From assembly GCA_020746875.1 (NCBI GenBank), contig JAGTJL010000013.1:1674001-1738000 (forward strand): 64,000 nucleotides of DNA. Direction: 5' to 3'. Source of the stretch: Rhexocercosporidium sp. MPI-PUGE-AT-0058. Taxonomy: Eukaryota > Ascomycota > Leotiomycetes > Helotiales. Under the pieces are notes generated by a model, which was given only the letters and a program-made list of their open reading frames with translations, was not told where the DNA came from and made no database searches. Both the position numbers and the translations under genes were made by a program. Below, piece after piece: positions 8,001-61,147 of this stretch. Numbering within the stretch: the first letter of the stretch is position 1; each line of letters begins with the position of its first letter.

Positions 8001-8184
8001 TGTCGTATAGGCACGGGCAGCTGCTCTCTTGGTACTACACGTAATCTAATTAGGTTCTGCTACTGTAGACCGCCTTCAGGAGAATAACTATCTTCTCCTG
8101 ATTCGGAGAGCTTTTAGAATAATAATTAATTACTTTAATTTAATTATAATTACTTATAATGCTTTAATTTACTTTTATATTATA
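8001..8184 (+). repeat. 5' LTR of the copia element
   Basis: It begins TGTCGTATAGGC and ends tattata, where the partner ends taccata, so the canonical TG...CA ends are RIP-altered to TG...TA. By eye about 23 of 184 positions differ from the 3' copy. All are transitions, in both directions, so both copies were mutated after insertion. Confidence 0.92.
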
Positions 8185-8197
8185 ATTATAAGCCCCG
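8185..8197 (+). other. probable primer-binding site of the copia element (half-tRNA-iMet type)
   Basis: The bases just inside the 5' LTR read attataagccccg. Many copia elements prime on an internal half of initiator tRNA-Met, whose complement includes TTATGAGCCC. One G-to-A change, as RIP makes, would give the sequence seen here. The assignment rests on position and this similarity only. Confidence 0.45.
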
Positions 8198-9477: not shown

Positions 9478-9750
9478 TTGCTAAATACGCGAGTAAATAC
9501 TTGCCCGTATAAGTATTACTTTTATTATTATAAGGCTATTAATTATTATAAACTTCGGTATTACTACGACGGCTCGACGGCGAATAACCTTAAGAACTTA
9601 TTATTAATAAAGGAAATTAAAGAGACTCGACTCCGATTAAAGAGCGACTTCCTTGACCTCCGCCGAGAAATTACTAAATTCAATAAGAATATATTATTAA
9701 TAACGCAACTGGCTTTCGGACCGCCTTTTAGTAATTCCTTTTTTACTTAA
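9478..9750 (+). pseudogene. gag remnant of the copia element with ruined zinc knuckle
   Basis: An open stretch of about 90 codons contains CPYKYYF followed by several Y residues and ends in a charged helix-like part (KEIKETRLRLKSDFLDLRREI). The spacing and the Y runs suggest a CCHC zinc knuckle in which Cys (TGY) and His (CAY) codons became Tyr (TAY), the changes RIP makes on either strand. It lies just upstream of the protease-like segment, as expected for gag. The frame opens with TTG, so no start codon is assigned. Confidence 0.5.
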
Positions 9751-9888
9751 GCATTAGCAACTCTTATAACTCTAAAGCCAGCTACTTTAATAAAAGCAAA
9801 ATACTCTGGAAACGTTTAAGCTTATTTTATAAGCTCTGAATTCCTCGACAAAGCTCTTGTTGCTATAAAGGTATACGCTACTATAGAT

Positions 9889-10188
9889 ATGAATCGTCAT
9901 CTGCTCGTAGAAAGCACCTTGCTTAATAACGGAGTTATTATTTATTTAATAAATTCAGAAGCTTTCTTCATTCCCGGAAGCTTTATTAAATCCACTGCGG
10001 ACGATAGCGTTAAAGCCGGAACGTTAAGCCTAATAATTAAGAGCCGCGATACTCGAGTTCTTAAAAGTGCTCTCTACGGCCTTAACGGACCGAATATAAG
10101 CGATTTAATCCTCTCGAACGTCGCTATTATTAAAAGCTTTAATATTAATATTATTTCAGAAGCTCGCCTTTTACAAGTAAGAGTTTAA
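9889..10188 (+). pseudogene. aspartic-protease-like segment of the copia polyprotein
   Basis: About 99 codons are open. The pattern HLLVES...AFFIPGSFIKSTADDS..AGTLSLIIKS...L..ALYGLN...DLILSNVAIIKSFNINIISEARLLQ matches the copia protease layout: a hydrophobic lead into the active site, an ADDS/ADGS turn, and the I-S-x-x-L end. The catalytic DSG is not visible and was probably altered. It is one of the few uninterrupted pieces of the element and is not a functional enzyme. Confidence 0.5.
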
Positions 10189-13100
10189 TATAATAATTTA
10201 AATTGCACTTTACGCACGAGAACAGCTAAGGACAGTCTGGTTTTAAAGCAATTATAATAATAATTTAACTTAACTTTCTTTAAATATAAGCCTTTTAATT
10301 ACTTTTCGGTTTCTTTAACTACTCGCCGTATTTTAATTCGCTTAAATTATAGCTTTTTAATATTTCTAACGCTAAAAAGGAGCATCCGCTAAGGCTTTCA
10401 GTCGAGTAGACGATATTTGAAACCACGAGTCGACGAAGCTTACTTATAGTATTTGCGCGCAAGTTATTTAAGAAAGGAAGCTTTAAAAAACCTAATGAAA
10501 AATACGCGTAACGTCGAGATTTAAGGCTTAACTCGGTTGAAATACGAGTATTATATAGTAGCTACTGCATAGTAAGTAATAAGTCGTCGTTAATTAAAAA
10601 GAGTAATTACTTATTCTTTTTATTATATTTTTTAGGATTTATTCGATTTTCTAGTAAAGTTTAACGGGAATAGCTGGCTTTTATTAATTAAAAACAAATA
10701 TAATAAGAAATTCTACGAGCGGCTTTTGAAAACTAAAAGATTAATCGCCGTCTTAAATACTCTTAAACCGTTTAAGGCGTAAACGAGACGTTAATTTAGG
10801 CTCTCGGTTTGCAAAATACGCTAAGATAACGATATTTTAATTATAAGGATTAATAGAGTAATTAAGTATGAAAAATAATATAAGGAGAGTAGTATTAATA
10901 TTAAATCTACCCTCTTATATATATATTAACTTAATAAAAGAGTTAAGCGCGTAAGTAAAGAAATAATTAATAAATCAATTAAAATGCGCCTTTCCGTTAA
11001 TTTACTTCGGGCGCTTTAAACGGAATCAGTAATAGCGGTAATTATTCTTTATAATATAAGTCTATCTACTCGTAAAAGCTTTAAGAATTTTAACGAAATA
11101 TTCTAAGCCTGGTTTAAGCAATATTTTCGGTATTACGATTCCAAGCTTACGCTAAAGCTGACAACCGATTTACGGCTTAATTAAAGCAACTTATATACGT
11201 ACGGCTATAGAACTTATCTTATAATTAAAGACCGAGAAACTTTTTGCTAAAAAAGAGCCTTTAAAGTCAACCCGCGAGCGCATTTTAATTACTTAATTAA
11301 ATACGTTTTATTTAATATTTATAAGATTTAAGTGCCTTAATTATAATATATAATAATAATTCGAAATATTACTTTTAACGAAACTTTCTTTTATTTAAGC
11401 TCTTTAAATATAAAAAGAACGGTCGGCTAGCCGCGTTTAATATTAAAAGATCTTACGGAAATACTAAAAGAAGAAAAAGGAGATTAAGACGCTAGTTTTA
11501 TTATAATTAACCGACTGAGCGCACTTAATATATTAAAATTAAAAACACCGTCTATTACTCCGAACGGAGAATAACTAAGCGAAGTAATAAGCGCTATAGA
11601 AGTCGACGAACTTATAAACTCGGAAGTATTAAAACCTTTAATTAAGCTTTTAAGCTCGAGGGTAGAGTTATTTGCTCCCCTTTTAGCTAAATTAATAGAA
11701 GTAAATACGCTACTTTTAGCTGATTTAATAGCTCTTAATTCTATTCAGCTGCTCGTTAGTAAAAACTTAAAGGTGATTTAGCTAAGAAAAAGTGCTAGAC
11801 TTCTTACTTATAAGCACTTTAATTAAATCTTAGAATAAGCCGATATTTTAAGATAATTAGCGTTTAAGAGCGTAATTAAAAGAAGTATTTTACGTAATAT
11901 ATTAAACTTTTAAAATAATATAAGCCTTAAGCGGAAGTCAATATTATAAGTTATAATTTACTTTAAAAAGCTATACGACCAAAAGTGCGGTCTTAAGCGT
12001 CGAGGAGCACTTAAAGAAAGTATCGGCCTTAAATAATTAAAAGCTCTGCCTTAAGTAATTAAGTACGAGGAGTATTTATAATTATCAAAATTAAAAAAAG
12101 ACAGAGAATTAAGTTTACGCTTATTACTCCCGGCTTTAATTAAATTAAATTCCGGCTTATTTAAATCTTTTAAGAGGAAAAGAATAAAAGACCGAATAAT
12201 TAATAAAAGTCGAAAGACTCGAATTAATAATAAAATAACGAAACCGAATCGAAGCGTCTATATAATAATTATTAAAAAGCTAATTACGGAATCATTATAA
12301 CCGTTAAGCAACCGTAAGTACTTAAAGGATTTTCTAAGGACTTTCTGGCCTAATTAAGAACTAGTGCGAAGAGACGGAAAAGACTTAAGCGCAGTTCACG
12401 CTATTATATCAGCGTTTATGCTTAAAAATATCGAAATTCGACAATTAATTAAGCTCTTACGGATTTATTAATTATAAATGCCTAAGGACTTATTAAATTG
12501 GAAAGACTTTAAGGATCACCCGTTAAGCGAGCACTTCCGAGCCGACGCTATTAAAGAGATTACTAACTTTAAGTCGCGTAATTATTAAAGAATCGTCAAA
12601 TATACCTTTACTATTAAGCAACTAATTCCCTTAAAATAAGTATTTCACGCTAAAGTCGATTCGTTAAAGTATTTAACCCGCTATCGCTCCCGAGTCGTTA
12701 TGAGAAGAGACTTATTGCTTGAAACGTTAATTTTATTAATATATATAATTACTTTAGTTACTCGCTCCTTCAGAACCGCTATAACTATTATAATTTAATT
12801 TAATTTAAAAATGATTTAATTTAATATAATAAATGCTTTTATTAACGCTAAACGAAGTAAGATAAGTGCTCGCGTACGCTATTATTTACTAAACGGCTTT
12901 AAATAAGACGGAATAATAATAGAAGTTAATCGCGCACTTTACGGACTTAAAGACTTACCGGCGTTATAATACGGTAATTTCACTTATACTTTAATAACTT
13001 TAAGATTAATCGCTTATAAAAAAGAGCCTTATATATTTATAAACGAGTAACGTATAGTATTTATAATATTTTATATCGACGATATTTAAGTACTTTATTA

Positions 13101-14419
13101 TACTTTGGCTTTTAAAAATACTAAATTAATTACCGACGGCTTAAATATAATATATAAGCTTATCAGAAGAAAGCAAACGAAATAATTCTTAAGCGTTCGT
13201 ATTATTAGAGATCGATTAGCGAAGACTATCTCTTTAATATACGACATTTATATTTAAAAAATTGCTCTTCGATTTAAGTTAGTAAATAGAAATTACTTAA
13301 GTATACTATTACTTTAAGTCGAATTACTAAAGAATTAAGAATAAACTACTCTAGCTCAAATTAAGGAATTTTAAGAGAAAGTTAAATTAATACTTTATAT
13401 TATAATTATATTACGCGCAAACGTCGCTTTTACTACTTTAAGGCTTTTTTACTTCTTAATTAATCCTTCTTAAGAATATTTAATTATAATTAATTAGATA
13501 ATTCGTTACTTTTTCGGCACTCGTTTTTTAGCGATTACTTATAATTATAAGCTGCGCGACTCTTACCTTATAATAATATTAAATGCTTCTTTTGCGAATA
13601 ATATCAAAATAAAGCAATCTTTTAATAAATATATTTTTATACTTTTTAAAAGTTTAATCTTTTAAAGAATAACTTTATAAAATATAATTATTATATTTAT
13701 AATATAAGTAAAGCTTCTTAAAGTTAAGCGCATCGGTAAGGAACTTATAATACTTTAGCGATTCTTTTAAGAATTACGCTTTAATATAAGAGTAACTTAA
13801 ATAATTTTTTATAATAATTAATAAACGATTCGGTTAATCGTTAAAGAAAATTAGCGTATTTTTATTAAGTTACGTTACGTTAATATTTAGAATATATAAT
13901 TACGCTAAGAGTTTTAGAAAAGCACTTTTATAATAAAATATCTTTTTATAAGTTATATATTAATTAATAAACTTATTAAAAACCTTTCTCGGCAGAAATT
14001 TAAAGCATTTATTACTCTTATTAACTTAATAAATATTTATATTTAATTAGAGTAACTCTTTTAAAAGACTTGCTTTAAAATAGTTTTTTATATATATTCT
14101 TTACTTTTTATTTATTTTTAAAATAATTATATAATAAGCTTACCTTTTAATTAAAAAGCTTTATTTATATTATTATATATTCTTTTATAAAATTCTCTTT
14201 TATAAATTTCTATTTATAATTTTATTTTATTAAAGATTAATTGAGCTCGGAGGTATAAATTATTATATTTTAAAGAATTAATTACTTTTAACGATTCTTT
14301 AATTTAAAAGTAAACGTAAGCTTTAGTTTTTAAAATATAAAAAAATACTTAAAGAATAAAAGGTTCTTAAGCTTTAGAAAATAAAAAAGCAGTTCATTTA
14401 TTAAAAAGTAAAAAGCCTA

Positions 14420-15370
14420 AAACCTCCCGAACTAGCTCGCTTAAAGTATTAATTATTATATTAACTAACTCTTTAACGCGAGCAGCTTAAGCCTCTTGCT
14501 TAAGAGTAAGAACAACTCCACGAGTAAATATAACTTAGAAGGCCAGAATATTAAGGCCCGGATTATAAGCGCGAACAGCTCCGGTAGCAGCCTCAGCAGC
14601 GGCAGCAGCGCGAGCAGCTTCAGTAGTAGTAATAATAACAGGATAATCAGCTGCTTCCTTATTACCTTTTTTAATAAAAAGAGCACCCGCAGCAGTAGCA
14701 ATCTTCTCTTTAATAATATAAGTATAAGCTATAAAAGCAGTTAAAAGCTTTTCTTTTTCTTTTAAAAGATTAATTAAATTAATTCGATTTTCTAGAAATA
14801 AAGCAAGTAACTTACCGTTCTCCTTATTATCGTTATCTTTATTATTATCTTTAAATCTATTAATAGCTCCTAAAGTAATTTTATTATTAAAACTAATAAT
14901 AGCGCTAGCAGCAGCAGCTCTACTAATATTATTACTTTTAAAGGCGGTACAGACCGGGATTCTTAATTACTTTAACTCTTAAAAAAATCAATAATAAATC
15001 AAAAAGCGAGAAAAAAACAGCTGAATCGATTTACCTTCTTACCAGCTTTATTTTCTAACGTATTACGATATGCGAAGAAAGAAGCCTAAATAGCAGCGAG
15101 AGCAATTACGCACTTATAGCCGAACAAGTAAGCGAAGTAACGAGTATCCTTTTTAATAATATTATAGCATTAATTATTACTTTTCATTTAAAAGGCGCTA
15201 TTAATACAGCTCAGATAGATTATTATACGAGCACTTACTGGCTGCTTTAAAGCCCGGGAAGCAGCAGCGGCACGGCGAAGAGCAGGAGTAAGGACAGGAG
15301 TAGCCGATAATTATACTTTAATAACGACTTTCTTTTTATTATTAATAATAGCCTTAACTTATTATAAATC
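14420..15370 (-). pseudogene. degraded antisense reading segment inside the 3' part of the copia element
   Basis: Read on the minus strand, the stretch gives Ala-rich, protein-like sequence in pieces: TPALRRAAAASRALKQP, then FAYLFGYKCVIALAAI, then AAGALFIKKGNKEAADYP followed by TEAARAAAAEAATGAVRAY. The pieces are separated by gtaa...ag segments that look like introns (for example after ENKAGKK), and stop codons sit at likely former Q/W positions. The plus strand of the same stretch gives only Ser-rich or broken frames. It lies between RNase H and the 3' LTR. The function is unknown. It could be an extra antisense gene of the element or a captured host gene. Confidence 0.35.
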
Positions 15371-15784
15371 AGCGGTTATTTTTTAATTAATTAATCTTTA
15401 ATCAGTCGATCTCCGATTAGTAAATCGAAACTAATAGATTGAAAATCGAGCTACTTACCTTGCTCTAGCGAGCAAATCGTCGTTTTATTATAACAATTCT
15501 GGCGAAGCGCTTGGAGATACTTATAATATCGAAGAAAGCAATTAATTAATTAATTAATTAATAAATTAATTAAATAATAAATCGAGAGCAGTCGATCTAT
15601 ATGTTGTCGAGTGTTTATAAGTTTAAGTTTAATAAGAAAATCGTTAGTTTATATAATTAAGTTATTTGCCTGATTATCGTATATAAGTGAATTTATTTGC
15701 TTAATTCTTTCTTATTATTTGCTCTCGCTTAATATAGCTAATTATAATAACAGTAGCTTATTATTATTAATTGCTTAGGAGGTA

Positions 15785-15968
15785 TGTCGTATAAGCACGG
15801 GCAGCTGCTCTCTTAATACTGCACGTGACCTAATTAAGTTCTGCTACTGTAGACCGCTTTCAGGAGAATAATTATCTTCTCCTGATTTGGAGAGCTTTTA
15901 AAATAATAATTAATTACTTTAATTCAATTATAACTGCTCACAGTGCTTTGATCCACTTCTATACCATA
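15785..15968 (+). repeat. 3' LTR of the copia element
   Basis: Partner of 8001-8184. It is directly preceded by a short purine tract (taggaggta) and followed by the target duplication ataag. It keeps more C and G than the 5' copy, for example gatccacttc where the 5' copy has aatttacttt. Confidence 0.92.
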
Positions 15969-15973
15969 ATAAG

Positions 15974-18153
15974 TTAATAAGTAATTAAATAATTACTCAC
16001 TCGGTGAGCTTCCAGAGCTAAGTAAAGAAGATAACCTTTAAGAATAAGAAGTTAAAAGTATCTTTAATTATAAATAAAATAAAAAAAGTAAAATTAAGAA
16101 ATATTTAATTAAATAAAAAGATTTCCTAGAAGATTATAATACCTGGCTCTTAGCATATTTAAACCTCGAAAATACTAAGGAAACTCTTAATATATATAAT
16201 AAGAATTATAAATTAAAAAATTAAATACTAAAAGCAAAAAAATATAAAACCTCCGCGTAATTTATAAGAAGGCCGAGAAAACTATAAAAAGTCGGGAAGC
16301 CGAGAAAACACTACCGATTATAAATAAAATAATTTTTTTTTTATATTTTCTTATAAAAGTTTTGAAAGTTTTATTAAAGTTTTAAAAGTAATATCGGCGT
16401 AAGTATAAAATATATAATATTATATTAAAAAAGAATAAGTTTATAAAATATATTTAAATTATAATTTAAAAAATAACGAAATTCTATTTTAATTATAAAG
16501 TAATAATATAACTCTATTGCAAGTATTTAAAATATAAAGTATTTATTTTATAAATTAAATTATCTGAAAATCTTAAACTCTTTAATATTAAACTTAAACT
16601 CGTATCGTAATATTTATTAAGCGCTAAAGAATTATAAGACATTTCCTGAAATAGTTTTAGTAGTCTCGTTCGATATAATATTGCTTTAATATAATATTAA
16701 TATATATTAGTAACGGAGCGAGTACGGAATACTTATAATAATTATTATAACTTCGCGATATAATTAAATTTCTGTTATTAATTCTTTTATTAAATTGTGA
16801 GTAATTTGGTCGGCTTCGGAGGCGGAGGTGGTAATATAAGCGTTTTTGAACTTAAATATATTATCGATTAAGCGTATTATACTTTTATAAAACTTCTTAA
16901 ACTCCTTTATTTTATTAATATATTAATAATATTCCGAAAAAGAAAAGTATAATTTACGGGAAAAGTATTAATAAGAGGAGAGATTTAATTAGTATCTTTC
17001 TTATTAGGCTTAAAGGATATACGTAATAAGGAATTAGTTATGCGGTGCTTCTCGAGCTAAGTAGCGAAGCTCTAAGCTCCCGTGGGAATTATAAAATTAT
17101 AATCCTCGAAAGCGACGCTAGTATTATATTAGCTATTCTTACGCAGCCAGTTCTCGAAATCGACGGCAAGATTCTTTATAATACGGATATCCTTATGAAA
17201 AGTACGAGGGAATTATTTATTTTATAATTAATATATAGTTTACTTTTGACGCGTTTAATATTATATTATTAATAAACTTTATAAATATAAGTACGTACGA
17301 CGATATAAACGGCCTTTTACTCGAAGTAGCAGTTATAATTCTTCTTGCCTTTCTTATTAATATAACAGAAGAAGGGATCGATTAATATAGTTTTAAAGTA
17401 TTAGTCGTAAGAACTTCTGCGAGGCTAGTTCGTAAGGTTATTAAATATAATAGCTTTAAGACGCTAAACGAAAGATATAATAATAATAATATTAATAATT
17501 AATTAAAAAAAAGAAAAAAAAGAGAAACGAGGGGATAGCGACGCATAAGCACGGGTATTATATATAAATAAGCTGAAAAGGAAAAGTTATTATTAACGTA
17601 ATAAAGAGACTATTTATATATACGTTTTAGCGAGGTAGCGGAATCGTAATTACTACGCAATTATATTATTATATTTGTACTATTTGCACTCTATTTATTC
17701 AGCAAATAAACGTAAATACGCTACTAGCGCGCAATTTACTTATTACTTTGCCGACCGAAGATAACTTTTTAATAATAACGATAATTGCAGCATTTGAATA
17801 TAAGTATAAGAGCTCTTATATATACGCGTAAGGGTCTTATAATTAAAGCAAATATCTTTTATTATTTTATAAAGCTATTTTTATCTACTAAGCTAGTAAT
17901 ACTGATATATTATGCGAAACGGCTTATAGAGTAATCGGACGACGTTCGACGAATTAATCGCGATGTAGTATTATATACTTAACGCAATGATTTAAATAAT
18001 CGTATTAATCTAATTAGTTAAACTTATCGACCGAAATACGGCTGTCCGATTTACCGCGGCTTAGTCCTCGCTTTAAGCAACGCGAAAGCGTATTAATATA
18101 TTATTAATTAAAGTATCAGTATCGCGGACGCTATTACTAGGAGAGGGAATAGT
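15974..18153 (+). other. 3' internal part of the gypsy element after the nested insertion
   Basis: The gypsy reading resumes after the ataag duplication. A chromodomain is readable at about 16040-16215. Beyond it the sequence is AT-rich with one 60-codon open stretch at 17045-17227 that has no recognisable family and no ATG-based start context. The region ends at a purine-rich tract before the 3' LTR. Confidence 0.6.
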
Positions 18154-28561: not shown

Positions 28562-30751
28562 TCATATCAAACTAAAAACTGTGAGGTCTTGAGAAGAGGC
28601 GACTCGAGTTGCCAGCTCGCCATTCATAGCACCGTACAAGTAGCATTCGCCAACGAGTTTATATGCTCCCTTCAGATTCCTCCTGAATATCTTCCAGTCC
28701 TTTCGGAGCAAGAAAGGCACTCGGCATCCGCGAAGGAGACATATTCTATCGCCAGGTGTAGCACAACACGGGCCGAGTCCCATCATGCCGTTGTCAGTGA
28801 CGAACAAGAACCGATTTCGACACGCTTCGAAAAGTGCATGCGCATAATCCGATTGTGTGCTGTTGCTAGGCAGCTGTGGATGATCATTTTGAATGTAATC
28901 TCGGAATTGTTTCAAGGGCGTGTCGCTCGCATATAGTGGGTCTTTTGTGAGTTCCAAAGTGAGCGCACAGAAGCCGTCGATGTGTTCCTTCAAGGCTTTT
29001 GGATTGGCAAGGTCTAGCATAGAACCGCCTCGAACCCTGCCTGCCGTCAATGTCACAGCCAACTTCGTAAGAAATTCTTTCCTTTGCGTGTCGCTACTCT
29101 TCGCGAACGACTGCTTTTGTGAATTGTTCCTCAGTTCTTTCTCGATGGCATGCAGTACCCAGGTCCAATCCCGTTTGCCTTGACCAGATTTTGCACTGGA
29201 ATACTCCACCTCATCGACATTGACGACTGATCGTCTCTTTAGGCGACCGATTTCAACTCCCCTGACTTCTAGGACGCGGAGGGCATTCCCTCGATGCTTA
29301 CACGTCATCGTCTTCGCAAAAGTTTCCCCTGAAAACCCGTCTCCAATTGCGTTGAAGTTCTCCGCATTCGCTTCTGGTAGCCAAATTGGAGCACTCATCT
29401 CGATGCGGTTCCAACATGGCACCCAGGTAGGTGAAAGAAGATTGCTTGCTTCCGTGGCTTTCATCAGACGTCTCTGGCGGTGGAGCTTCCAAGTGAACTT
29501 CTCATCAACTAGCCATATTGCACGATCGACATGGTCCTGAAGAGATAGAAAGCCAAGGTCACTCTTGGATTCTATCAGATACTCTGCCAGATCTACGCAT
29601 ACGACGATGGGATCTTTTCGGTAATTAGCCATTAGAGCATCAGGAACTCCACGGCCAGTAGTCGTTGGTTGCTCTGTGGCCTCGGTGCCTGTGGGTCTAG
29701 AAAAGTCTATCATGTTGACCAGTGCAAACACCTTATCCCTGCTGTCTGTCGCAGTGTAAGCTCTCGTGGCACGTAGCATAGGAAGCAGCTCAAATCCCGA
29801 TTCATAAGTCTGAGCATAGAAGTTCGTGTAGTTCACAGCTTTAATCCCAACAGTCAGTGCAGGATCAGCGACCAATTCCGCGTATCGATGCATAAACCAC
29901 GTCGCGAAGAAGATCACGTCTTTCCAATCCAAAGTCTTATTCCCACAATGTACTTCTTTGTCCTTGGACAACACGACTTCCTGCAACGGCCACATCCTGG
30001 TAAACCAAGACTTCTGATAGAAGGCGAGAATTGCTTGCGTTTCTGTGTCACCAATCGTTGGCAGCGCAGAGTAAGAGGTAATCCTGCGACTTTTTAACTT
30101 CTCTGCGCTTTCCAATGAAAGTGCATGTACTAGTCCGAGGCGCATTTGTGGACTGTAGTCCGTATCCTGCTCGTCAAGAAGGGTCTCCAGTTGCCGACGA
30201 AAAGTTCCAAATGACGTGATGATCTGAAGAGCGATGTCGTCCTGCTCAACAGGATTCCCTAGCCATATCAGAGTCTTCTTTGCTTCGCTGTATATCCTAC
30301 CCATATTTGGGACTTGACCGCTCTTTTCATCATCATCCGTCTGATTGATACTGATCTGATCTATCCAAACTGCACGATCTCTTGTTTGATTCTGTCGCAG
30401 AATAAAAAGAGCTTCGATCAAGCTTTTGCTTATCGGAAAAGGACTTTGTTCTACATCGTCAATTATGTGAATATGAGGAACTTTTCTGCAATCTTTGTGT
30501 GCTGGAACATCTTGCCATCGATATGAAAGCGCTTCATATCGTGGTGAATCTGCAAGATCTCCTCGCCAAAGGGTGCCATAGATAGGCTCCCTTCCTGTAC
30601 CGGGATGCAATAGCAGAATTCTGATCTGTGTTGGCTTGAGAGATGGTCGTGAAGGAGTTATATGATTGTAAGGCTGTGGTGTGTCTAGACGGTCGTCGAT
30701 ACTTGAGTGAGCATCTCTGTCACATGCATCTGCGGAGCAGCTCCAGGACAT
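28562..30751 (-). CDS. HET-domain (heterokaryon incompatibility) protein, 729 aa
   Basis: Single uninterrupted exon. The HET domain begins with IRILLLHPG (about residue 43) and contains YEALSYRWQD (72-81), AVWIDQISINQTDDDEK (128-143) and MGRIYSEAKKTLIWLG (150-165), the three conserved blocks of the family. The C-terminal part carries GDRICLLRGCRVPFLLR and GECYLYGAMNGE, a tail shared with the neighbouring HET gene. HET proteins act in non-self recognition between fungal individuals and can trigger cell death on incompatible fusion. This copy has no visible NACHT, WD40 or patatin partner domain. The ATG at 30751 is the first in frame that gives a full domain. Its role in actual incompatibility cannot be told from sequence. 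Confidence 0.92.
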   Translation of the reverse strand: MSWSCSADACDRDAHSSIDDRLDTPQPYNHITPSRPSLKPTQIRILLLHPGTGREPIYGTLWRGDLADSPRYEALSYRWQDVPAHKDCRKVPHIHIIDDVEQSPFPISKSLIEALFILRQNQTRDRAVWIDQISINQTDDDEKSGQVPNMGRIYSEAKKTLIWLGNPVEQDDIALQIITSFGTFRRQLETLLDEQDTDYSPQMRLGLVHALSLESAEKLKSRRITSYSALPTIGDTETQAILAFYQKSWFTRMWPLQEVVLSKDKEVHCGNKTLDWKDVIFFATWFMHRYAELVADPALTVGIKAVNYTNFYAQTYESGFELLPMLRATRAYTATDSRDKVFALVNMIDFSRPTGTEATEQPTTTGRGVPDALMANYRKDPIVVCVDLAEYLIESKSDLGFLSLQDHVDRAIWLVDEKFTWKLHRQRRLMKATEASNLLSPTWVPCWNRIEMSAPIWLPEANAENFNAIGDGFSGETFAKTMTCKHRGNALRVLEVRGVEIGRLKRRSVVNVDEVEYSSAKSGQGKRDWTWVLHAIEKELRNNSQKQSFAKSSDTQRKEFLTKLAVTLTAGRVRGGSMLDLANPKALKEHIDGFCALTLELTKDPLYASDTPLKQFRDYIQNDHPQLPSNSTQSDYAHALFEACRNRFLFVTDNGMMGLGPCCATPGDRICLLRGCRVPFLLRKDWKIFRRNLKGAYKLVGECYLYGAMNGELATRVASSQDLTVFSLI

Positions 30752-31485
30752 CTTAAAATCGTTGAGGCATGCGGTTCGGTCTTTCTCCCACTCGAGGCAC
30801 CGGATGAGTTGGATTTGTGGAAAAATGTCAAGAGGAGAAAGAGGGACTCGAAGATTTGCTTGAGGTCAAGGTACTGAGACACGGTGGCTTAGTGGCTTTT
30901 GTGGCAGTGCCAGATTTGGGTATGCCCCGCATCACTGCATAAAAATGAGGGCTTTGGATAGGCCGAACTCTCTTTGATGCCTTCTTCAACGCAAGCTAGC
31001 CCAATGCTCACAATGGCTCAGTTGCTACTCAAGAGCGTCGCTACCACGTATATACAAGAGACATATTTCGGTCCGTGATACCTTGAAGTACCATTGCTAC
31101 TCCATCAAACGGCACTATTTCGTAGCTGCCGTAGCGATCAATTTGTTCGCTGGCGGGAGCGAATCATCCGAACCACTTCTAGCATGTCCTTAACGTTGAT
31201 CTTCGATACTAATCTCAAAATGATCCTTCAATGTCCCAATAAATCTCTCGAGTCTGACAACTATTGCATACCCTCATCCGATCTAATGGATGCCGCAGAA
31301 CGGATGCAGCAAACCCGGGTGGGCGATAGGCGGACTGGGGGTTGACTATCGACGACTACCGACAAGTGCTCGAAATCGAAATACTAATTAATATCCAAAC
31401 ACCAAGAAGTGCATCCAATGCTGCAGACTTTCCAGCACATTCCGATTTTCTGGCTCGATACATTGCAATAACAATATACGCCGCC
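30752..31485. other. intergenic between a minus-strand HET gene and a plus-strand candidate gene
   Basis: It should contain the HET promoter (near 30760-30960) and the promoter of the downstream plus-strand gene. Open frames at 31094-31345 and upstream have no family resemblance and no good intron pattern. Confidence 0.4.
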
Positions 31486-32100: not shown

Positions 32101-32657
32101 GCTCAAGGAGAGAATGTTGGATATAATGCCAAGGGGTGTGCTGTACTGGCGATAAATGTCGACCTAGTAGCTTTGAAACAAATTGACTCCATGTAGCAAC
32201 CTCTCAGATGTTAGACACGCAAATCGATTAGGGCTTTCAATCATAACATAGGCCATGAGTCTCGTTTCAATGTAGTGTCTGGTATATTAAACAAGATATA
32301 GGACTTAGAGAGAGGTGCCAAGATTCTCTTCAATTTAGGCTATATAGAATATCTAAGTAAGGCTGCTTTGCTCGCCCGTACGTAAGAATGTGGGGGCCGA
32401 TAGTCACCCGCGGGATTTGGATGACACCGACACGAGGCAATCATGGATAACCCCAGTTTCGACCCTCACGACTTAACAACCCCAAGAACCCAATCAACTC
32501 CATCACAATACTGGAAGCGGATCGAATACACTATCACCCTTAAAAAAATTTCACGACAAGTACAAGCAACCACTGGCAGGCTTAGCCCCAACTTCCCCGG
32601 ATAATTTTCAACAGCCGCGTAAACCCCAGCCTCGTCAGCCAACAGGCTGCCATCACA
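32101..32657. other. intergenic; promoter region of the second HET gene
   Basis: About 560 bases with no gene. The 100 bases before the ATG at 32658 are C/A-rich, as is usual for ascomycete 5' leaders. Confidence 0.4.
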
Positions 32658-34733
32658 ATGTCAACTTCCATACTTACATACAAACATAGCATTCTTAGAG
32701 CCGAAAGAAATGAGATCAGATTGATTCGTCTCCACCCTGGCCAATCCTACCACGACATCTGCATCGACATATTCCACGTAGATCCATCGCTGAATCCATC
32801 ATACGAAGCTTTATCATATGCCTGGGGAGACCCAACGCGGTCTGAGAAAATCACCGTCCGGAGCCGCTCTCCAGCGTCTGGTCGCTCTAACACAACAGAA
32901 TATCCAGGAACATTTACAGCTGACCTAACCCACACGTTTGCTGCCCTGTACATTTCTCGCAACCTGGCGATTGCCCTCCGCCATCTACGGCTGCCAAAGG
33001 ATGTACGAACCCTTTGGATCGATGCAATATCTATCAACCAGGATGACATTGAAGAGAGGAGCGAAGAAGTGGCCAAGATGGGCTCGCTCTACAGCAATGC
33101 ATGGCGTGTCATTGTCTGGCTTGGTGGTTCGAGTCAGGACAGTCTGCTGGCTCTTCAAACCTTGAGGAACATCAGGCAAGATACCGACTTTTTTGAGAAA
33201 GATGGGCTTCGCTCATTCCTCACACGAGGCGAGACTGGGGAGTTAGAAAGGAGTCCGAATGGGTGGCGCGCAGAGGTGTTGAAATGGATCGCAATTAGGA
33301 GCTTGCTCAATCGACCATGGTTTGGTCGACTGTGGATCTTTCAAGAGATCGGTCATGCGAAAAAAGCAGTTGTCGTCGTTGGCAAGGATGAGCTATCGTG
33401 GGAAGCATTCCGCGTAGCAGTATTCTGGATCATATATATGACGGAGGGTAAAGCACCACTTTCAGACATTTTCGATGCAGCCTACTTACGCCAGATCGAC
33501 TCTTTGTTGCAGGAGAATCCAGGAAGGGCTCTTGAGCGACTCCTAGACTCGACGAAGAAGGCGATCTGTTTTGATCCACGAGATCGCATTTACGCTATTC
33601 TCAGCTTGTTGCACCCATATGATCCTATCAGGAAAGCGATTGAGCCTGATTACGCAAAGTCTGTGGAGCAGGTCTACCAGGAAGTGACTGTGCGCCAGAT
33701 ACAACTTACCAGCCAGCTGCGACTATTGGCTCTCTGCTCGTTTTGGAATTCTGAATCGACCCTCCAGCTCCCCTCGTGGGTACCAGATCTGTCTATCCCG
33801 AATCCTCTCGAGCAGATACTAAACTCCAATGCGTCGGGTCCATCAAATCATAAGAGCCCCCTCACACTAAGCGAAAGATATTTGACGATTCGTGGTACAG
33901 TAGCAGGCGTTATCAGCGAAATTCTAACACCAATCACACTTTCCGCCAGACTTCCGGAGATCCTGGCTGTGTGCTACTCATGGGAACCTCCAAACGCGGC
34001 CGCAACAGCCTACGTTACGGGTGGAGACCTCATGACTGCATTTATCACCACATTGTTCTTTGGTGCAATCTCGGAGTTGAATGATTTCGGAATGCCATTG
34101 GAGTACGATAAATTGAGAGGGGTTTATGAAAACACAGTGGTCCGCGGCGTAACCGACGTGATCGAGGACGATGGTGACGATAATGTTAACGAGTGGTATA
34201 ATACGCGGCATCTTCAGTCTTATTTGCCTGGACGGGCGCTCTTCAGGACTAAGGAAGGGCACATCGGGTTATGTCCCGCCGCCGCACGAGTCGGGGACTC
34301 GATTGTCATTGCGTACGGGTGCGCAACACCACTGGTTCTACGTCCAGCATTCGACCATTACTTTGTTGGCGGCGAGTGCTATGTATCCGGGCTTATGAAT
34401 GGGGAGGCTTTGTTTGGCCCCCTGCCGCAGGGCTGGACACTCCAATCCTGGAAAGCAATCAATCGCGAGAAGCGTCCCATTTTCAAGAGCCCAACGGGGC
34501 GAACAACTTTGACGGATCCTAGGCTCCAATCGCTGTCAAAAGGGTCCCAAATATCGTTTCTACCTCGCGGCAAGAAACGCCGATACAGTGTTGCTGGCCA
34601 GGGACGTTCAGACGATGATGAAATTGTCACAGGAACTGAAGAAAGAAATCGGGAGCAACAACAAATGTCAGGCGTCAACAACCCAAAGAATCTCCTTCCA
34701 GGTTTGATGATTAAAGAATTTGTACTAATATGA
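32658..34733 (+). CDS. HET-domain protein, 691 aa
   Basis: Single exon from ATG at 32658 to TGA. The HET domain starts at IRLIRLHPG (about residue 20) with YEALSYAWGDP (49-59), TLWIDAISINQDDIEER (118-134) and MGSLYSNAWRVIVWLG (141-156). Further family blocks are RPWFGRLWIFQEI near residue 220 and DPRDRIYAILSL near 310. The C-terminal segment GDSIVIAYGCATPLVLR...GGECYVSGLMNGE mirrors the end of the other HET gene, so both belong to the same long HET subtype, though they differ greatly in the middle. A basic, low-complexity tail (RGKKRRYSVAGQGRSDDDE) follows and could hold a nuclear signal. Expected role: non-self recognition and cell death after fusion; this is inference from the family. Confidence 0.93.
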   Translation: MSTSILTYKHSILRAERNEIRLIRLHPGQSYHDICIDIFHVDPSLNPSYEALSYAWGDPTRSEKITVRSRSPASGRSNTTEYPGTFTADLTHTFAALYISRNLAIALRHLRLPKDVRTLWIDAISINQDDIEERSEEVAKMGSLYSNAWRVIVWLGGSSQDSLLALQTLRNIRQDTDFFEKDGLRSFLTRGETGELERSPNGWRAEVLKWIAIRSLLNRPWFGRLWIFQEIGHAKKAVVVVGKDELSWEAFRVAVFWIIYMTEGKAPLSDIFDAAYLRQIDSLLQENPGRALERLLDSTKKAICFDPRDRIYAILSLLHPYDPIRKAIEPDYAKSVEQVYQEVTVRQIQLTSQLRLLALCSFWNSESTLQLPSWVPDLSIPNPLEQILNSNASGPSNHKSPLTLSERYLTIRGTVAGVISEILTPITLSARLPEILAVCYSWEPPNAAATAYVTGGDLMTAFITTLFFGAISELNDFGMPLEYDKLRGVYENTVVRGVTDVIEDDGDDNVNEWYNTRHLQSYLPGRALFRTKEGHIGLCPAAARVGDSIVIAYGCATPLVLRPAFDHYFVGGECYVSGLMNGEALFGPLPQGWTLQSWKAINREKRPIFKSPTGRTTLTDPRLQSLSKGSQISFLPRGKKRRYSVAGQGRSDDDEIVTGTEERNREQQQMSGVNNPKNLLPGLMIKEFVLI

Positions 34734-35103: not shown

Positions 35104-38074
35104 TTACTCAAACTTAACCCTAATCACCTCATCCAACATCTGCCCCACCTCGATCGTCAACGCCTTCTTCTCCGCATCATATGTCCACCCCTCCTCAGGA
35201 CAAGTAACCCAAACCGTCTTCCCTCCTGGATATCCCTTACTCCAGTAAGCTCCCTTTGGCTCCTCCTCTACCCCTAAAACAACCACCTCATTAATCCAGT
35301 TCTTCTCCTTCTGATACCCAAAGGTCCCTCCAACACTCAACTCCTTCCCCTTCCACACAAGCGCAATCTCTGACACCGCCTCCTGCACAATACTCTCCCC
35401 ATCATCAAGATACAACTCCCCGCTCGCCTCGCCCTCCTTGCTCGGCGCAACGAGGAGATTGAACGGCTGTTTCCGAACCTCCGTCGTCGTGTACGCCGAG
35501 CTATTCCTCATAGGAATGATCGAACCGCCGCGGACATGTAGCGGGATCTCGGTGAATGGTATATCGGTCAAATTCACCAGCTCTCCCTTTCCTTGAACCT
35601 TCTCATACGTCTTGAAATCATAGAAGATATCTTCGGGCAAGTAAATCTCAACACTCGTCCCATTCTCCTCCGTAACAGGCGAGACTAACAAAGAACTCCC
35701 ATAGAAAAATTGCAATTCCACAGAAAACGTCTTCGCATCTTCAGGATAGAGGAAGAACATCGGGTTCAGGATCGGCGTACCATCAGTCGATTGTTTATGC
35801 AAAGCCGCGTAGATGTAATCAAGTAGCCGATACCTGATATCAATTGCATTCTTCGCAGCCGCAGTAACGGATTCCCACAAGTAGAATTCCTGTGGGTTCG
35901 AACTATCGCCATTATGGTTCCTGAAGAAAGGGTTGAATGCACCCAGGGTAGCCCAGCGCGCACACAGCATTTCAGTCGTGTTTCCGCCGAAACCGCACAC
36001 GTCGCTGCCGACCATAGGAATCTGGTAGATAGCTGCGAAATCGAGCATGCCCTGGATGGAGTTCCGGTAAAGTGACCAAGTCGAAAGGTTGTCACCGAGC
36101 CACTTCCCGACTGCGTGCCCGCTGCCGGCGAATGTAGAGCGCGTGATTACCATAGGTCGCTTTCCTGGACGGCGCGCCTCCATTGCGTTGGCTGAGTATT
36201 CCGACATCATTGCACCGTAGAGGTTGTGTACGTCGAGTTCGACGTGGCCGTCGAAATGCACGATGTCTGTGTCGAGAGTGAAGTTGGACACACCGCCGTA
36301 TGTCTCGACTGTATTGGCATTGTCGATCTGATATGGAGGTTCCAGGAGATTGCGGTTGGGAAAACCAATTGGATCCTGAGCTTGCACTTGTCTCTTTTTA
36401 AATACGGGGTTGGTAGCAACGCCTCGCTTGGTATTTGGTGAAGCAGGAGGCGACAACCATGGTGGAGCGTATCCGAGACTGTCAGGTGGATAAGGCGAGT
36501 TTGGATCAGGCTGAAAAGACTGTGGGAATCCTGGAATAGGTCGTGGAGCAGATCTCAAAGCTGGTCTTGTAGGAGGGAATCCTCGCTCTTCGGCACTCTC
36601 TTGAGGGTCTTCACCAAAATAGTTGAAGTTGGCTGCTTCATTCATGTCGATCCAAAGAGCGTCGATATCGACTCCTGTGTCGGCATCAAAGAATTCCAGA
36701 AACTCATTTGTCCAATACTCCTGTGTGTCTGGATGGAACCAATCCGGGAACGCCGTGACACCTGTTTGAATTAGCGTCGGACACACGGCTTGTCTCTCCT
36801 CCTCTCTGGAGCAAGACTTACCCGGCCAAACAACGCCTTGATAAAGACTCCCATTCTTCTGCAACAGAACCCCCTGATCCCTCCCCCTCAAGAAAGTTTC
36901 ATACGGCAACCCATCCTCCCTCTCCTCCTGAAACGCCATAGCCGGATCAACCATGACAATATACTTCTGATCATGGTCATGCAGATAATCCACAAACTCC
37001 CTCACGCGCGCAATCGGAAAGCGATCCGGATCCGTCGTCATGATATACCGCTCATACATATAATCGATATCCGTCCACATCGTCTCGAGTGGGATGCCAG
37101 ACGAAGAGTAGTTGTAGATGACTTCAGCGATGGAGTAGAAATCCCGGTATCCGTATCGGCATTGATGGTATCCGAAGCCCCAGTAGGGCATCATGGCTGC
37201 TTTGCGCGTGACTTCTGAATATTGCTGCGCGACTTCGTTGGGGCTCGGTCCGTCTAGAAAGTAGAGATCTATCACACCGGACATGATGTTGTACTCAAGG
37301 TACTGGCCATCGTCTTCCGTCCTGTTGATCTTGACATCCATACCGGCGCTAGAGAGCATGAATACTCCATGCGTTCCTTTCTCACCTCGATGATCGAAAT
37401 AAATAGGATGGTTCCCGTAGAGATTCTGTCCAGATGGCACACCATACGAGTCTCTCGACCAAAGCGTGCGCGTGTAATCCGTGGTATTCAAGCGCAGAGA
37501 ATCAGTATGTTCGCCAAGGCCATACAGATTAGGATTTTCAGGCAGAGAAGTTCGGAGACGGAGATACTGGTCTTCGAAAATGAGCGTTGCGGCAGAAGTG
37601 TCGAAGAGCACTTCGCCGTTGGACTTCCGTGTGACTTTGAAGCTGAATGGTGATATCTCGTGAGAGAATTCCAGTGCTGATGCGTCTGAGGAAACAGAGG
37701 CGTTGGAACTGGGCGTCGGGAAGACGCTTGTGGGGACTTGATAGGCGATTTTGCCTGCATCTTCGATTTTTACGTGAAGACGTGATTCTGCTCTCATCAG
37801 CAACCAATCCGGTATAAACGAAAATCAAAATGAAAATACACTTACCAGAGTCGTAATTGACAGTCAGTTTCAGCTCAGACACATCAGTGCCATAAACATT
37901 ACAAGCAGCGCCTCCTAGGTTGAGATTCGCCGTCAAGCCTGTCGCTGTCTGCTCAACATCTGAAGCAACATATCCAGGACAACTCTCTCTGGTACCGGCA
38001 GCCTGTCTACGGGAGACAGCAGCTCCCGAGACAGTGCTTGCCCAAGCAAGACCCGTGACAATTTGACGAAGCAT
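35104..38074 (-). CDS. secreted GH31 alpha-glucosidase, three exons, about 951 aa
   Basis: The product hydrolyses terminal alpha-linked glucose from maltose/starch-type oligosaccharides outside the cell. It starts at ATG 38074 with a signal peptide (MLRQIVTGLAWASTVSGA). GH31 motifs in order: NLYGLGEHT, ETMWTDIDYM, ALWIDMNEAANF (catalytic Asp nucleophile in WIDMNE, near residue 450), HAVGKWLGDNLSTW (acid/base Asp region), and GSDVCGFGGNTTEMLCARW..GAFNPFFRNHN. Exons are 38074-37846, 37790-36822 and 36761-35104. The second intron (36762-36821, GTAAGT...ACAG, 60 nt) has no stop and keeps frame, so an automatic model may read through it; splicing joins VVWPG to VTAFPDWF as in the family. The length is normal for fungal alpha-glucosidases. 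Confidence is high for the family, and lower for the preferred substrate. Confidence 0.95.
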
Positions 38075-57100: not shown

Positions 57101-57337
57101 GAGTTTGTTTCCTTCATCTTCATCTCATCTCATCATCTCACTCATCATCATTCAAGGAGCTCTCTCCTTATTTCCTACTTCAGTCTTTCATCTGTCTTAG
57201 ATCTCCTACAGTCAAATCGCTTTCTTCATCTCATCTCATATCAGAAGCTTCTCCTATCTCTTTATCGCAGCCCAGCCACATACAGTAAGATCTCTATCCC
57301 ACTCAGCCTTACCCCCATCCTAATTTTCATTCTAGAA
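54115..57337. other. long intergenic stretch with at most gene fragments
   Basis: This is 3.2 kb without a convincing gene. An ATG at 54710 opens 42 codons (MASNYGQYFVVEAPKPVDRVEVRSL) that could be a first exon. About 200 bases on, at 54944-55100, another frame gives VGPFVGFQDGRIPHDGQ, but no intact model joins them. A run of about 19 C lies at 55425-55443. A tgcatgcatgcatg motif lies near 55993. From about 57100 to 57330 the plus strand is CT-rich (many tcatctcatc units), typical of the leader of a strongly expressed fungal gene, and leads into the peptide precursor gene. Confidence 0.45.
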
Positions 57338-58108
57338 ATGGTTTCATTCTCCCGCATTGCTTTCTTGGTCGCTTGTGTTCTTCCAGCAATCCTCGCTGCT
57401 CCAGTTCCAAATGCTGAGCCAGGAAACAAACTCGGCATTGGCGGTGTCTCGACCTTCAAGCCCATCAGACACAACAAGCGTGAGCCGACCCCAGAGGCAG
57501 ATCCAGGGAACAAGCTGGGAATTGGGGGAGTCATGACTTTCAAGCCCATCCGCCACAACAGACGGGACGCCGAAGCAGAGCCTGAAGCAATTATCGAGAC
57601 TCGCGAGCCCGGAAACAAACTCGGCATCGGAGGAGTCATGACATTTAAGCCTATCAGACACAACAAACGTGAAGCCGATGCTGAGGCTTCCCCATCACCA
57701 GAAGCTGAACCAGAAGCTGAAGCGATTGTCGAGGCTCGGGAACCAGGCAACAAGTTGGGGATTGGCGGTGTCTCGACCTTCAAACCTATCCGCCACAACA
57801 AACGCGAAGCCGATGCTGAGGCCTCTCCATCACCAGAAGCTGAATCTGAAGCAGAGGCCATTGTCGAGGCCCGGGAACCAGGCAACAAGTTGGGGATTGG
57901 CGGTGTCTCGACCTTCAAACCTATCCGCCACAACAAACGCGAAGCCGATGCTGAGGCCTCTCCATCACCAGAAGTTGAATCTGAAGCAGAGGCCATCGTC
58001 GAGACCCGCGAACCAGGAAACAAACTCGGCATCGGTGGCGTCTCAACTTTCAAGCCTATTCGCCACAACAAGCGTGAGGCTGAGCTTGAAGCTGAGATTG
58101 AGGATTGA
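57338..58108 (+). CDS. secreted multi-copy peptide precursor with Kex2-type sites, 256 aa
   Basis: The ATG at 57338 (not the upstream in-frame ATG-less extension) gives signal peptide MVSFSRIAFLVACVLPAILA. The rest is six copies of GNKLGIGGV[S/M]TFKPIRHN at residues 29-46, 57-74, 92-109, 137-154, 182-199 and 227-244. Each copy is followed at once by a dibasic site (KR five times, RR once), the cleavage signal of Kex2 in the late Golgi. Each copy is preceded by dipeptides ending in P or A (AP-VP-NA-EP; EP-TP-EA-DP; or R then EP), as trimmed by Ste13-type dipeptidyl peptidase. The last four units repeat every 45 residues. Core codons differ between copies mostly at silent positions, so the peptide is under selection. 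The core has no Tyr, Trp or Cys and is basic. The layout matches fungal Kex2-processed repeat proteins (pheromone-like or RiPP precursors). No UstY-like oxidase was seen nearby. Confidence 0.88.
   Translation: MVSFSRIAFLVACVLPAILAAPVPNAEPGNKLGIGGVSTFKPIRHNKREPTPEADPGNKLGIGGVMTFKPIRHNRRDAEAEPEAIIETREPGNKLGIGGVMTFKPIRHNKREADAEASPSPEAEPEAEAIVEAREPGNKLGIGGVSTFKPIRHNKREADAEASPSPEAESEAEAIVEAREPGNKLGIGGVSTFKPIRHNKREADAEASPSPEVESEAEAIVETREPGNKLGIGGVSTFKPIRHNKREAELEAEIED
57722..58066 (+). repeat. tandem 135-bp coding repeats in the peptide precursor gene
   Basis: Units of 45 codons start at about 57611, 57746, 57881 and 58016. The second and third are nearly identical at DNA level over core and spacer, which points to a recent unit duplication or gene conversion. 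The first two units of the gene are shorter and more diverged, with synonymous changes in the core. Confidence 0.8.
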
Positions 58109-59528: not shown

Positions 59529-61147
59529 TCAAACTGCAATAGGCTGAGGAGGTGCATGCGAAGCAACAGGGATATCGACAGTCTGCTCGTGGATCGGGTT
59601 CTCGGTGGCTGCGGTGGTGTTCTCCTCTTCCTTCTTAGCTGGCTCTTCCTCTTGAGCCTCGACTTGGACTGGGGTTGACTCCTGCTCGACAACAGGTTCT
59701 TCGACTGCTGCTACAGTTGGCTCTGGTGCTGAGATGGTTTCAGCCGTTGGAGCGACTGCCACGTGTTCGGTGGAAGCTGGTGCGGGTGTCTCTTCGACCT
59801 GGTGGATGTCAGTTTGTGTTCGGAGTGAAACGATAAATGAGGCAAACATACAGCTGGTGCAGAAGTCTCCTCCACAGCAGTAGGTGTCTCCTCGACTTGA
59901 GGTGCAACCTCAACAGGCGCCAACTCAACGGGGGCTAACTCTTCAACCTGCATCGCAATCAGTAACAAACCTCACCACGCATTCCTGACAAAAACTAAAA
60001 CAAGATCAACGAAACTTACAACAGGCAAGCTCTCACTAGCCTCCGCCTCCGCCTCAAGAGGTTTTGACTCCTCAACCTAAAGCATTAATCAGCACCCCCA
60101 TCACTCAAGAAGGTATGATTCGATTCTCGATACCAGCAGTCCAAAAGAGACATATTGATAACTTACCGGTGTCTCTTTAACTTCTTCCTCCTTAATGTCC
60201 TTCAACTCCTCGGATTGAACCAAAACAGGCTCCTCTTCAATCGTGGCTGGAGTCTCGATGTCGGCTACTGGGGCGGGAGTGGGAAACTCATCGGCTGGTG
60301 CGAGGGTCTCTTCTGTTGCCTGCTCGACGGGAGCAGGGGTCTCTTCGGTGGCGGGTGTCTCGTCAACCGCAGGCGTGTCTTCAGCGGTTGGAACTGGCTC
60401 CTCAACATGTGCAGCTATGGTCTCTTCAACTGGGACGGACTCCGATACCTCCTTTGGCTCTTCGGTCTGCGCTACGTCAGCTTGTTGTCTCGTTTAGCGA
60501 GAAGAAAACCGGAAAACGTACGACTGCCTCGCTAACTTCTGGCTGCGTCTCGATTGCCTTCTCCTCCTCGATAGGAGCAACCTCCTCAGTCTTGCTCTCT
60601 TCAATGGGAGTAGGCTCTTCAGCTTTCTCTTCACTCTTGGCCTCTTCAACGACAGGGGCCGTCTTCTCACTCTTAGCTTCCTCAGCAACAACCTCCGGGT
60701 CCTCAGGCTTCACTTCGCTCTTACTCTCCTCGACAACGGGCGCCGCCTCCTCACTCTTCTCCTCGCTGCTCACCTCCTCTACAGGGGCGGCTTCCTCCTC
60801 TTTCGTCTCCTCCTCCTTAGTCTCCTCAACAGGCACACTCTCAACAGCAGCCTCCTCCTTCACATCACCCAACACACCCTCAGGTTGCGCCTCAGGAACA
60901 GCAGGTGGCGAGAGGGCAGCCTCACGAGCTACGAGCGCAGCTTCCCTAGCATCTAGAGAGGCTTCACGGGCATCGAGGGCTTGGGCGCGGAGGTTGAGCT
61001 GGGTGGAAATTAGTCTCAGCTTTGTCTGAGATGGGGGAAGGAAGGAGAGGTAAATAAATCAGAGGGAGGAGAGGAAAGACTTACAGCAGCTTCACGATCA
61101 GTGAAGGACTCGGAAGAAGGAACCTGGGTCTCAGTAATGTCGGCCAT
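59529..61147 (-). CDS. acidic Glu/Pro/Val-rich disordered protein, about six exons
   Basis: It starts at ATG 61147 (MADITETQVPSSESFTDREAA). After a first intron there is a heptad-like helix, LNLRAQALDAREASLDAREAALVAREAAL, likely a short coiled coil. The remaining roughly 370 residues are repeats of VEE/PVEE/SEE-type acidic segments with Pro and Ala, ending PPQPIAV at 59529. Introns are placed at 61020-61084, about 60480-60521, 60115-60166, 60000-60020 and 59793-59850 by GT-AG sites and continuation of the acidic composition; exact ends are uncertain. There is no signal peptide or membrane span. The composition recalls fungal proteins of unknown role, possibly scaffold-like, and no enzymatic domain is present. 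Confidence 0.7.

Follow-up and report, generated by a model that had tools for sequence, protein, structure and literature searches.

A single-exon gene of Rhexocercosporidium sp. MPI-PUGE-AT-0058 carries six copies of one short peptide behind a signal-like start. The question raised by this locus is what product these copies yield and to which class of secreted fungal peptides that product belongs.

The precursor gene and its orthologue

The window (the whole stretch of DNA that was analysed, 64,000 nucleotides) was found by its sequence and ORF list to contain a 256-residue ORF in one exon on the plus strand at 57338-58108, with its ATG at 57338 and its stop codon at 58106-58108. The original prediction placed six 18-residue cores of the form GNKLGIGGV[S/M]TFKPIRHN behind a signal-like start, and these were present as described, followed by KR in five cases and by RR in one (core 2). 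Residues 1-20 are hydrophobic and signal-peptide-like as judged by hydropathy. The whole precursor is devoid of Tyr, Trp and Gln and has a single Cys, which is located in the signal region. Spacers are 8, 15 or 25 residues long. In the following list, ladders, spacers, dibasic sites, tail and core 5 were read from the sequence, and the remaining cores from the sequence together with the core pattern.

57285..57335, plus strand: probable 5' UTR intron, with GTAAG...TTCTAG splice letters, 2 bases upstream of the ATG
57338..58108, plus strand: precursor gene, 256 residues, single exon, based on the ORF and a full-length orthologue (L045)
57338..57397, plus strand: predicted signal peptide MVSFSRIAFLVACVLPAILA, based on hydropathy, with a putative cut after residue 20
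57398..57421, plus strand: leader dipeptide ladder AP-VP-NA-EP
57422..57475, plus strand: core 1, GNKLGIGGVSTFKPIRHN
57476..57481, plus strand: KR site after core 1
57482..57505, plus strand: spacer ladder EP-TP-EA-DP
57506..57559, plus strand: core 2, GNKLGIGGVMTFKPIRHN
57560..57565, plus strand: RR site after core 2
57566..57610, plus strand: 15-residue spacer ending IIETR-EP, with the single Arg at 57602-57604 as predicted cut
57611..57664, plus strand: core 3, GNKLGIGGVMTFKPIRHN
57665..57670, plus strand: KR site after core 3
57671..57745, plus strand: 25-residue spacer ending IVEAR-EP, Arg at 57737-57739
57746..57799, plus strand: core 4, GNKLGIGGVSTFKPIRHN
57800..57805, plus strand: KR site after core 4
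57806..57880, plus strand: 25-residue spacer ending IVEAR-EP, Arg at 57872-57874
57881..57934, plus strand: core 5, DNA identical to core 4
57935..57940, plus strand: KR site after core 5
57941..58015, plus strand: 25-residue spacer ending IVETR-EP, Arg at 58007-58009
58016..58069, plus strand: core 6, GNKLGIGGVSTFKPIRHN
58070..58075, plus strand: KR site after core 6
58076..58105, plus strand: acidic C-terminal tail EAELEAEIED, without a CAAX box
35107-37824, minus strand: GH31 gene, with Cadophora proteins 85-88% identical among the best four of 120 listed

Since core 5 has the same DNA as core 4, it is probably a recent internal duplication.

A degenerate core pattern matched the 62.7-Mb genome six times, all at the precursor locus (control pattern, 0), and a 65-residue protein query of the genome likewise returned this locus only. 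In protein collections, a full-length search detected no relative at E <= 1e-3 among 1168 candidates (length limits of 0.55-1.75 of the query). Because these limits shut out shorter relatives, a 131-residue query was chosen, and by this approach one relative, P0121, was found among 69 candidates; relatives longer than about 448 residues fell outside the searches with both query lengths. P0121, a protein of 117 residues on a 501-base contig, agrees with orthologue L045 over its first 90 residues and diverges past IIEA, an end that is probably an assembly fault. The GH31 neighbour, used as a control query, retrieved the Cadophora proteins listed above (Helotiales, Ploettnerulaceae), which makes a kinship of the fungus with Cadophora probable. 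No Cadophora relative of the precursor was found in the same protein collection, and this points to a distribution of the precursor that is narrow or unannotated.

When prokaryote genome contigs were scanned with an alignment of the precursor and P0121, 34 stretches matched and one, L045, was confirmed. Two scans of viral contigs matched 80 and 3 stretches, of which none was a confirmed relative, and a 20-mer query had no match among PDB sequences at E <= 10. The Pfam matches PIGBOS1 (above the cut-off) and Bac_DNA_binding (below it) on the precursor had 0 matched stretches and were taken as low-complexity matches. No RNA families or tRNAs were reported in the window. The core strings were not found in the literature searched; in particular, core fragments were absent from the main texts of PMC6339444, PMC7329392 and PMC7099791 as far as these were available, a search that took in main texts as distinct from figures and supplementary KEP lists. 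Thus, the core sequence is provisionally regarded as new and may already figure in the supplementary KEP lists of PMC6339444 or PMC7329392.

L045 (positions 2001-2618), on contig NYXK01000105.1 (116,784 bases), is a full-length orthologue of 205 residues with five units. A GH31 gene with 88-92% identity lies on this contig roughly 20 kb away from the precursor, matching the arrangement in the window. Bases 62,000-82,000 of the contig are collinear with window 46-64 kb in reversed order (blastn, 15 pieces, several of which are repeat cross-matches). That the GH31-bearing contig is the L045 record was concluded from the equal length of 116,784 bases and from the precursor gene start located in it. 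Both splice sites of the 5' UTR intron are kept in the orthologue and the interior differs. The leader ladder reads APVPNAEP here and APLPIAEP in the orthologue, with only the first residues of dipeptides changed. The protein sequence of spacer 1 (EP-TP-EA-DP) is unchanged, with six silent changes over KR and spacer, and core 1 differs from orthologue core 1 at 3 of 18 residues. NYXK01000105.1 is filed as part of a Deltaproteobacteria MAG (isolate CPC1 67525) yet is fungal by its precursor orthologue, GH31 gene and collinear neighbours; judged by this gene content, the MAG holds at least one foreign (fungal) contig.

Predicted processing of the repeated units

The original prediction of Kex2- and Ste13-type marks on a multi-copy precursor is supported by the sequence, and the marks are conserved in the orthologue. 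As proposed, every dipeptide before the core ends in P or A in units 1 and 2 (AP-VP-NA-EP and EP-TP-EA-DP), and an Arg followed by EP precedes the core in the later units, where all four remaining spacers end Arg-Glu-Pro. When the 11 spacers of both genes were compared (6 here and 5 in L045), the four that are Arg-free were found to be 8 residues long, to be pure X-P/X-A and to stand before cores 1 and 2. The seven with Arg are all odd in length (15, 25, 25, 25, 17, 27 and 13 residues), have the Arg three residues before the core and without exception end I[IV]E[AT]R[ED]P. Ahead of the IV/II pair, five of these seven have ES or EV pairs that interrupt the dipeptide ladder. By comparison, all six internal spacers of the predicted alpha-pheromone precursor of the same genome are even X-P/X-A ladders. 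With an odd spacer, dipeptide stripping from the KR/RR cut misses Gly1, and thus the same N-terminus would arise only from a cut behind the single Arg. Applied to all KEPs, this even/odd spacer rule would test for single-Arg processing at little cost.

On the route that we propose, signal peptidase would cut after residue 20, Kex2 would cut after every KR or RR, and Kex1 would take off both basic residues to leave a C-terminus of ...PIRHN. In copies 1 and 2 Ste13 would strip the even X-P/X-A ladder to Gly1, and in copies 3-6 cleavage behind the lone Arg of I[IV]E[AT]R would expose EP, which Ste13 would then remove. The unmodified 18-mers have computed monoisotopic masses of 1894.05 or 1938.06. 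With regard to enzymes, a proprotein-convertase P domain was detected at one place in the genome and DPPIV_N at two, together with 33 exon matches to the S10 carboxypeptidase family, to which Kex1 belongs (matches at family level, none assigned as Kex1).

The P2 residue of the seven single-Arg sites is Thr in four and Ala in three. PMC8528282 describes aliphatic-x-x-Arg as an expanded Kex2 motif with an aliphatic P4 and a variable P2 that includes Thr, and Ala is not among the five best P2 alternatives named there; the yeast Kex2 matrix in Table 1 of PMC2515848 gives zero weight to P2 residues other than Lys or Arg. Given these preferences, cleavage at the single Arg may depend on a different enzyme or may not occur, and in the latter case the exact 18-mer would come from copies 1 and 2 only. 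Kex2-processed pro-domain effectors with an LxxR site have in common with this precursor a cut site of aliphatic-x-x-Arg type, which here reads [IV]E[AT]R; those effectors lose an N-terminal pro-domain (PMC8528282), whereas here the site lies between polyprotein repeats and has, in three of seven cases, a P2 Ala unlike the alternatives named in that paper.

Core change within and between species

Among the six cores of the window, variable columns by codon phase number 3, 1 and 14 (of 18 each), and a single amino-acid column varies. When the same 24 changes were placed at random, about 11 amino-acid columns varied, and none of 20,000 runs reached 1 at each of two mutation settings. The codon-phase bias and the simulation together favour the plus frame over an antisense ORF and support purifying selection on the core; the antisense candidate, of 331 aa, was rejected as inter-copy changes fall mostly at third positions of the plus frame. 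The related claim that changes are silent in the cores while spacers vary held in part: core changes are mostly silent and spacer length does vary, but spacers 4-6 often change silently as well and spacer 1 is fixed in protein between the species. In pairwise comparison of the gap-free spacers 4-6, silent changes made up 7/8, 9/12 and 2/4 of nucleotide changes, with 1, 3 and 2 amino-acid changes.

Comparison with the orthologue contradicts a strictly fixed core, as the cores of the two species differ at 3-5 of 18 positions, most copies of one species changing together. Free variation of the core among orthologues, named beforehand as an observation that would speak against the prediction, was looked for and not seen: 11 of 18 residues (N2, L4, G5, I6, G7, G8, T11, F12, P14, R16 and H17) are invariant over all 11 copies of the two species. 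In the orthologue, Lys3 is replaced by Arg in 5/5 copies, Val9 by Thr in 4/5 and Lys13 by Val or Arg in 4/5, with Val at position 13 in copies 1 and 2 and a basic residue retained in copies 3-5. Orthologue copy 5 (ANRLGIGGVSTFKPTRHH) deviates from the pattern of its own gene. For positional cores 1-3, pN between the species was 0.205 compared to 0.071 for GH31; thus, the core is not frozen and changes faster than its GH31 neighbour.

To separate shared replacement from shared DNA, amino-acid and silent differences were each compared within and between genes, with window core 5 (W5) dropped since its core is identical to W4. The mean amino-acid difference was 1.6 within genes versus 3.8 between them; 2 of 252 label splits attained this value, a count that necessarily takes in the real split and its mirror. 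By contrast, the differing share of same-residue codons was 0.526 within versus 0.510 between, a value reached by 178 of 252 splits. When orthologue copy 5 (O5) was dropped as well as W5, the amino-acid value was reached by 1 of 126 splits and the silent value by 94 of 126. The six within-gene pairs among copies 1-3 had pS of 0.48-0.82; for GH31 between the two genomes pS was 0.578 and dS 1.10, so that silent sites are near saturation. On these values the copies seem about as old as the species split or older, with no sign of DNA homogenisation except in cores 4/5. We infer that selection keeps the product uniform across copies, because the copies share replacements, whereas at silent sites they are no more alike than copies of different species; this covers two species, and the saturation and the departure of O5 count against it.

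The repeats could instead be alike through DNA exchange between copies and not through selection on the product, an evolutionary account that is compatible with the other readings below and that we regard as unlikely. It would explain the identical DNA of cores 4 and 5, and it has a parallel in the internal repeats of yeast MFalpha1, whose change is described as consistent with unequal crossing over (PMC5850478). Silent sites near saturation also leave room for copy exchange soon after the species split. However, cores 4/5 excepted, silent differences are as large within genes as between them and the amino acids sort by species.

Placing the product among secreted fungal peptides

We consider it fairly probable that Kex2, Kex1 and a dipeptidase of Ste13 type process the precursor into a linear, unmodified peptide that is secreted, likely as a signal, and is distinct from the alpha mating pheromone. 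A signal is favoured because ladder processing is common to pheromones, no UstYa match lies nearby and replacements are coordinated across copies. The precursor was originally taken to be of a new kind, which did not hold, as it fits the published KEP class (Le Marquer 2019, PMC6339444; Umemura 2020, PMC7329392). It is a KEP by the criteria of PMC6339444, with the signal peptide judged by hydropathy: its six dibasic sites give at least four fragments after KR/RR cutting, and the similar fragments, for which at least three making up at least 15% of the protein are asked, amount to 6 x 18/256 = 42%, as counted directly and not by the published FIMO pipeline. It shares with other KEPs the signal-like start, the Ste13-type X-A/X-P marks and three or more similar fragments bounded by KR/RR; it differs in that a single-Arg site, which lies at an odd distance, would set the N-terminus of four of its six units. 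One survey counted 7878 KEPs (PMC7329392), published KEP types are mostly confined to a single genus (PMC6339444, PMC7329392), and KEP functions are described as largely unknown (PMC9769878). Six KEP knockouts in Coprinopsis are reported to be without apparent phenotype, and a role for KEPs in communicating with the biotic environment has been put forward (PMC9769878), a precedent that by analogy would fit equally a peptide directed at other organisms.

Two of the closest models for a secreted product of this plan are the alpha pheromone and the dikaritins, both of which had been discounted beforehand. For the former, genome-wide tests bore this out by revealing a separate canonical precursor, and the core lacks paired cysteines. 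The predicted alpha-pheromone precursor lies at C12:571243-571782 (L040 544-1083) and has seven copies of RCGHPGQPC with even X-P/X-A ladders. A pattern with Trp before Cys had no match in the genome (control, 1), and a looser one had 21, of which 7 are the RCGHPGQPC array (control, 6). A second or replacement alpha-type mating pheromone at the locus studied here is very unlikely in our judgement. Such a reading could draw on a Kex2/Ste13 grammar shared with the alpha-pheromone gene, as both have KR sites and even X-P/X-A ladders ending at the core (pure ladders before copies 1 and 2 here, mixed before copies 3-6), and on replacements common to most copies of a species, which are ligand-like. 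It must contend with the RCGHPGQPC precursor of Leotiomycetes type already present as a separate gene, with a core that has neither PGQ nor the two conserved cysteines reported for Leotiomycetes alpha pheromones (PMC6339444; the only Cys here lies outside the cores), with the extra single-Arg route, and with the one gene found in a genome search for Ste2-type receptors, a receptor that presumably serves alpha pheromone. Precursors of h-type or a-type pheromones end in a C-terminal CAAX box. No such box was found in either of the two precursors compared, which end in EIED here and in EIEH in the orthologue.

Dikaritin precursors (ustiloxin, phomopsin and asperipin) are also secreted and have repeated cores between KR sites, and a cyclised RiPP of that type, modified by UstYa-like oxidases, was weighed against the linear peptide. 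About 22% of KEPs have DUF3328/UstYa genes nearby, on average 3.09 genes away when present (PMC7329392), and the UstYa profile had 60 exon matches in this genome at E <= 0.01. Here, unlike in dikaritins, the precursor has no Tyr to serve as a cyclisation site, in the core or elsewhere, nor any Trp. About 927 kb separate the precursor from the closest UstYa match on its contig, with none within the 15 genes on which PMC7329392 bases its criterion. UstYa was also absent from the MAG that holds the L045 contig, as it was from the control genomes, though the family was detected in this genome. Thus, the claim that this is no dikaritin stands, and a cyclised product is extremely unlikely.

The main rival to a signal is a cationic antimicrobial or competitor-directed peptide whose basic cores are masked by acidic spacers until cut, which we hold to be rather unlikely. 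Apidaecin and magainin precursors are acidic polyproteins from which cationic antimicrobials are made, and antimicrobial or competitor-directed peptides can have the same precursor plan. The computed charges fit, at about +2.9 at pH 7 for the core versus about -8 for one 25-residue spacer, and one published KEP type bears an Apidaecin profile label (PMC7329392, Table 2). On the other hand, the core is Gly-rich and modestly polar (computed GRAVY -0.41), orthologue copies 1 and 2 have Val for Lys13, with position 13 still basic in copies 3-5, and the alpha-pheromone precursor of this fungus has acidic ladders as well. A structural or surface-active hyphal repeat protein like Ustilago Rep1, with fragments that coat the cell wall, is a very improbable alternative: Kex2 sites separate the Rep1 repeats too (PMC2515848) and Rep1 peptides form amyloid-like fibrils (PMC9769878), but the cores here are short, polar and basic, and a coat has no obvious need of coordinated residue changes across copies.

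We would attach only a faint likelihood to one further idea, that the mature end ...Pro-Ile-Arg-His-Asn mimics the tail of plant IDA-type hormones, in six doses per polyprotein kept uniform by selection on all copies. HAESA and SERK1 contact Arg-His-Asn of plant IDA with its free C-terminus, and a central hydroxyproline anchors the peptide (PMC4848090); IDA-like genes are reported in two fungi (PMC8618561). Here RHN directly precedes KR/RR in 10 of 11 copies (one ends RHH), a free end presupposes the predicted Kex1 trimming, and the only Pro of the core is at position 14, with four residues after it. The likeness to IDA/CLE-type hormones consists of three residues, compared there alone and noticed post hoc, and the core has 18 residues versus 12 in the plant peptides (PMC4848090).

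For the signal that we favour, the precursor offers an exact product prediction, an orthologue that tests it and an alpha-pheromone yardstick in the same genome. Should further species bear out the coordinated changes, this would be a second peptide with ligand-like evolution in a fungus whose genome search gave one Ste2-type gene, and a receptor search would become concrete.

Elsewhere in the genome, UstYa exon matches cluster at C34:2592341-2602710 and C2:2370954-2390343, perhaps as dikaritin-type gene clusters. Among 20 chosen ORFs of the window, the precursor included, other Pfam matches were to two HET domains, aldehyde dehydrogenase, a GH79 C-terminal domain, amidase and an ABC transporter. 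The HET-domain ORFs, at 28565-30865 (minus strand) and 32586-34730 (plus strand), are adjacent and divergently oriented. Window 1-18000 is AT-rich, with a GC content of 0.20-0.37 per 2 kb compared to 0.45-0.52 from 20 kb on, and has few long ORFs, as expected of repeats that may have decayed by RIP-like mutation. Adjoining the precursor, at 59532-61058 on the minus strand, are low-complexity ORFs rich in Glu, Ala, Pro and Val with VEETPAP-like repeats.
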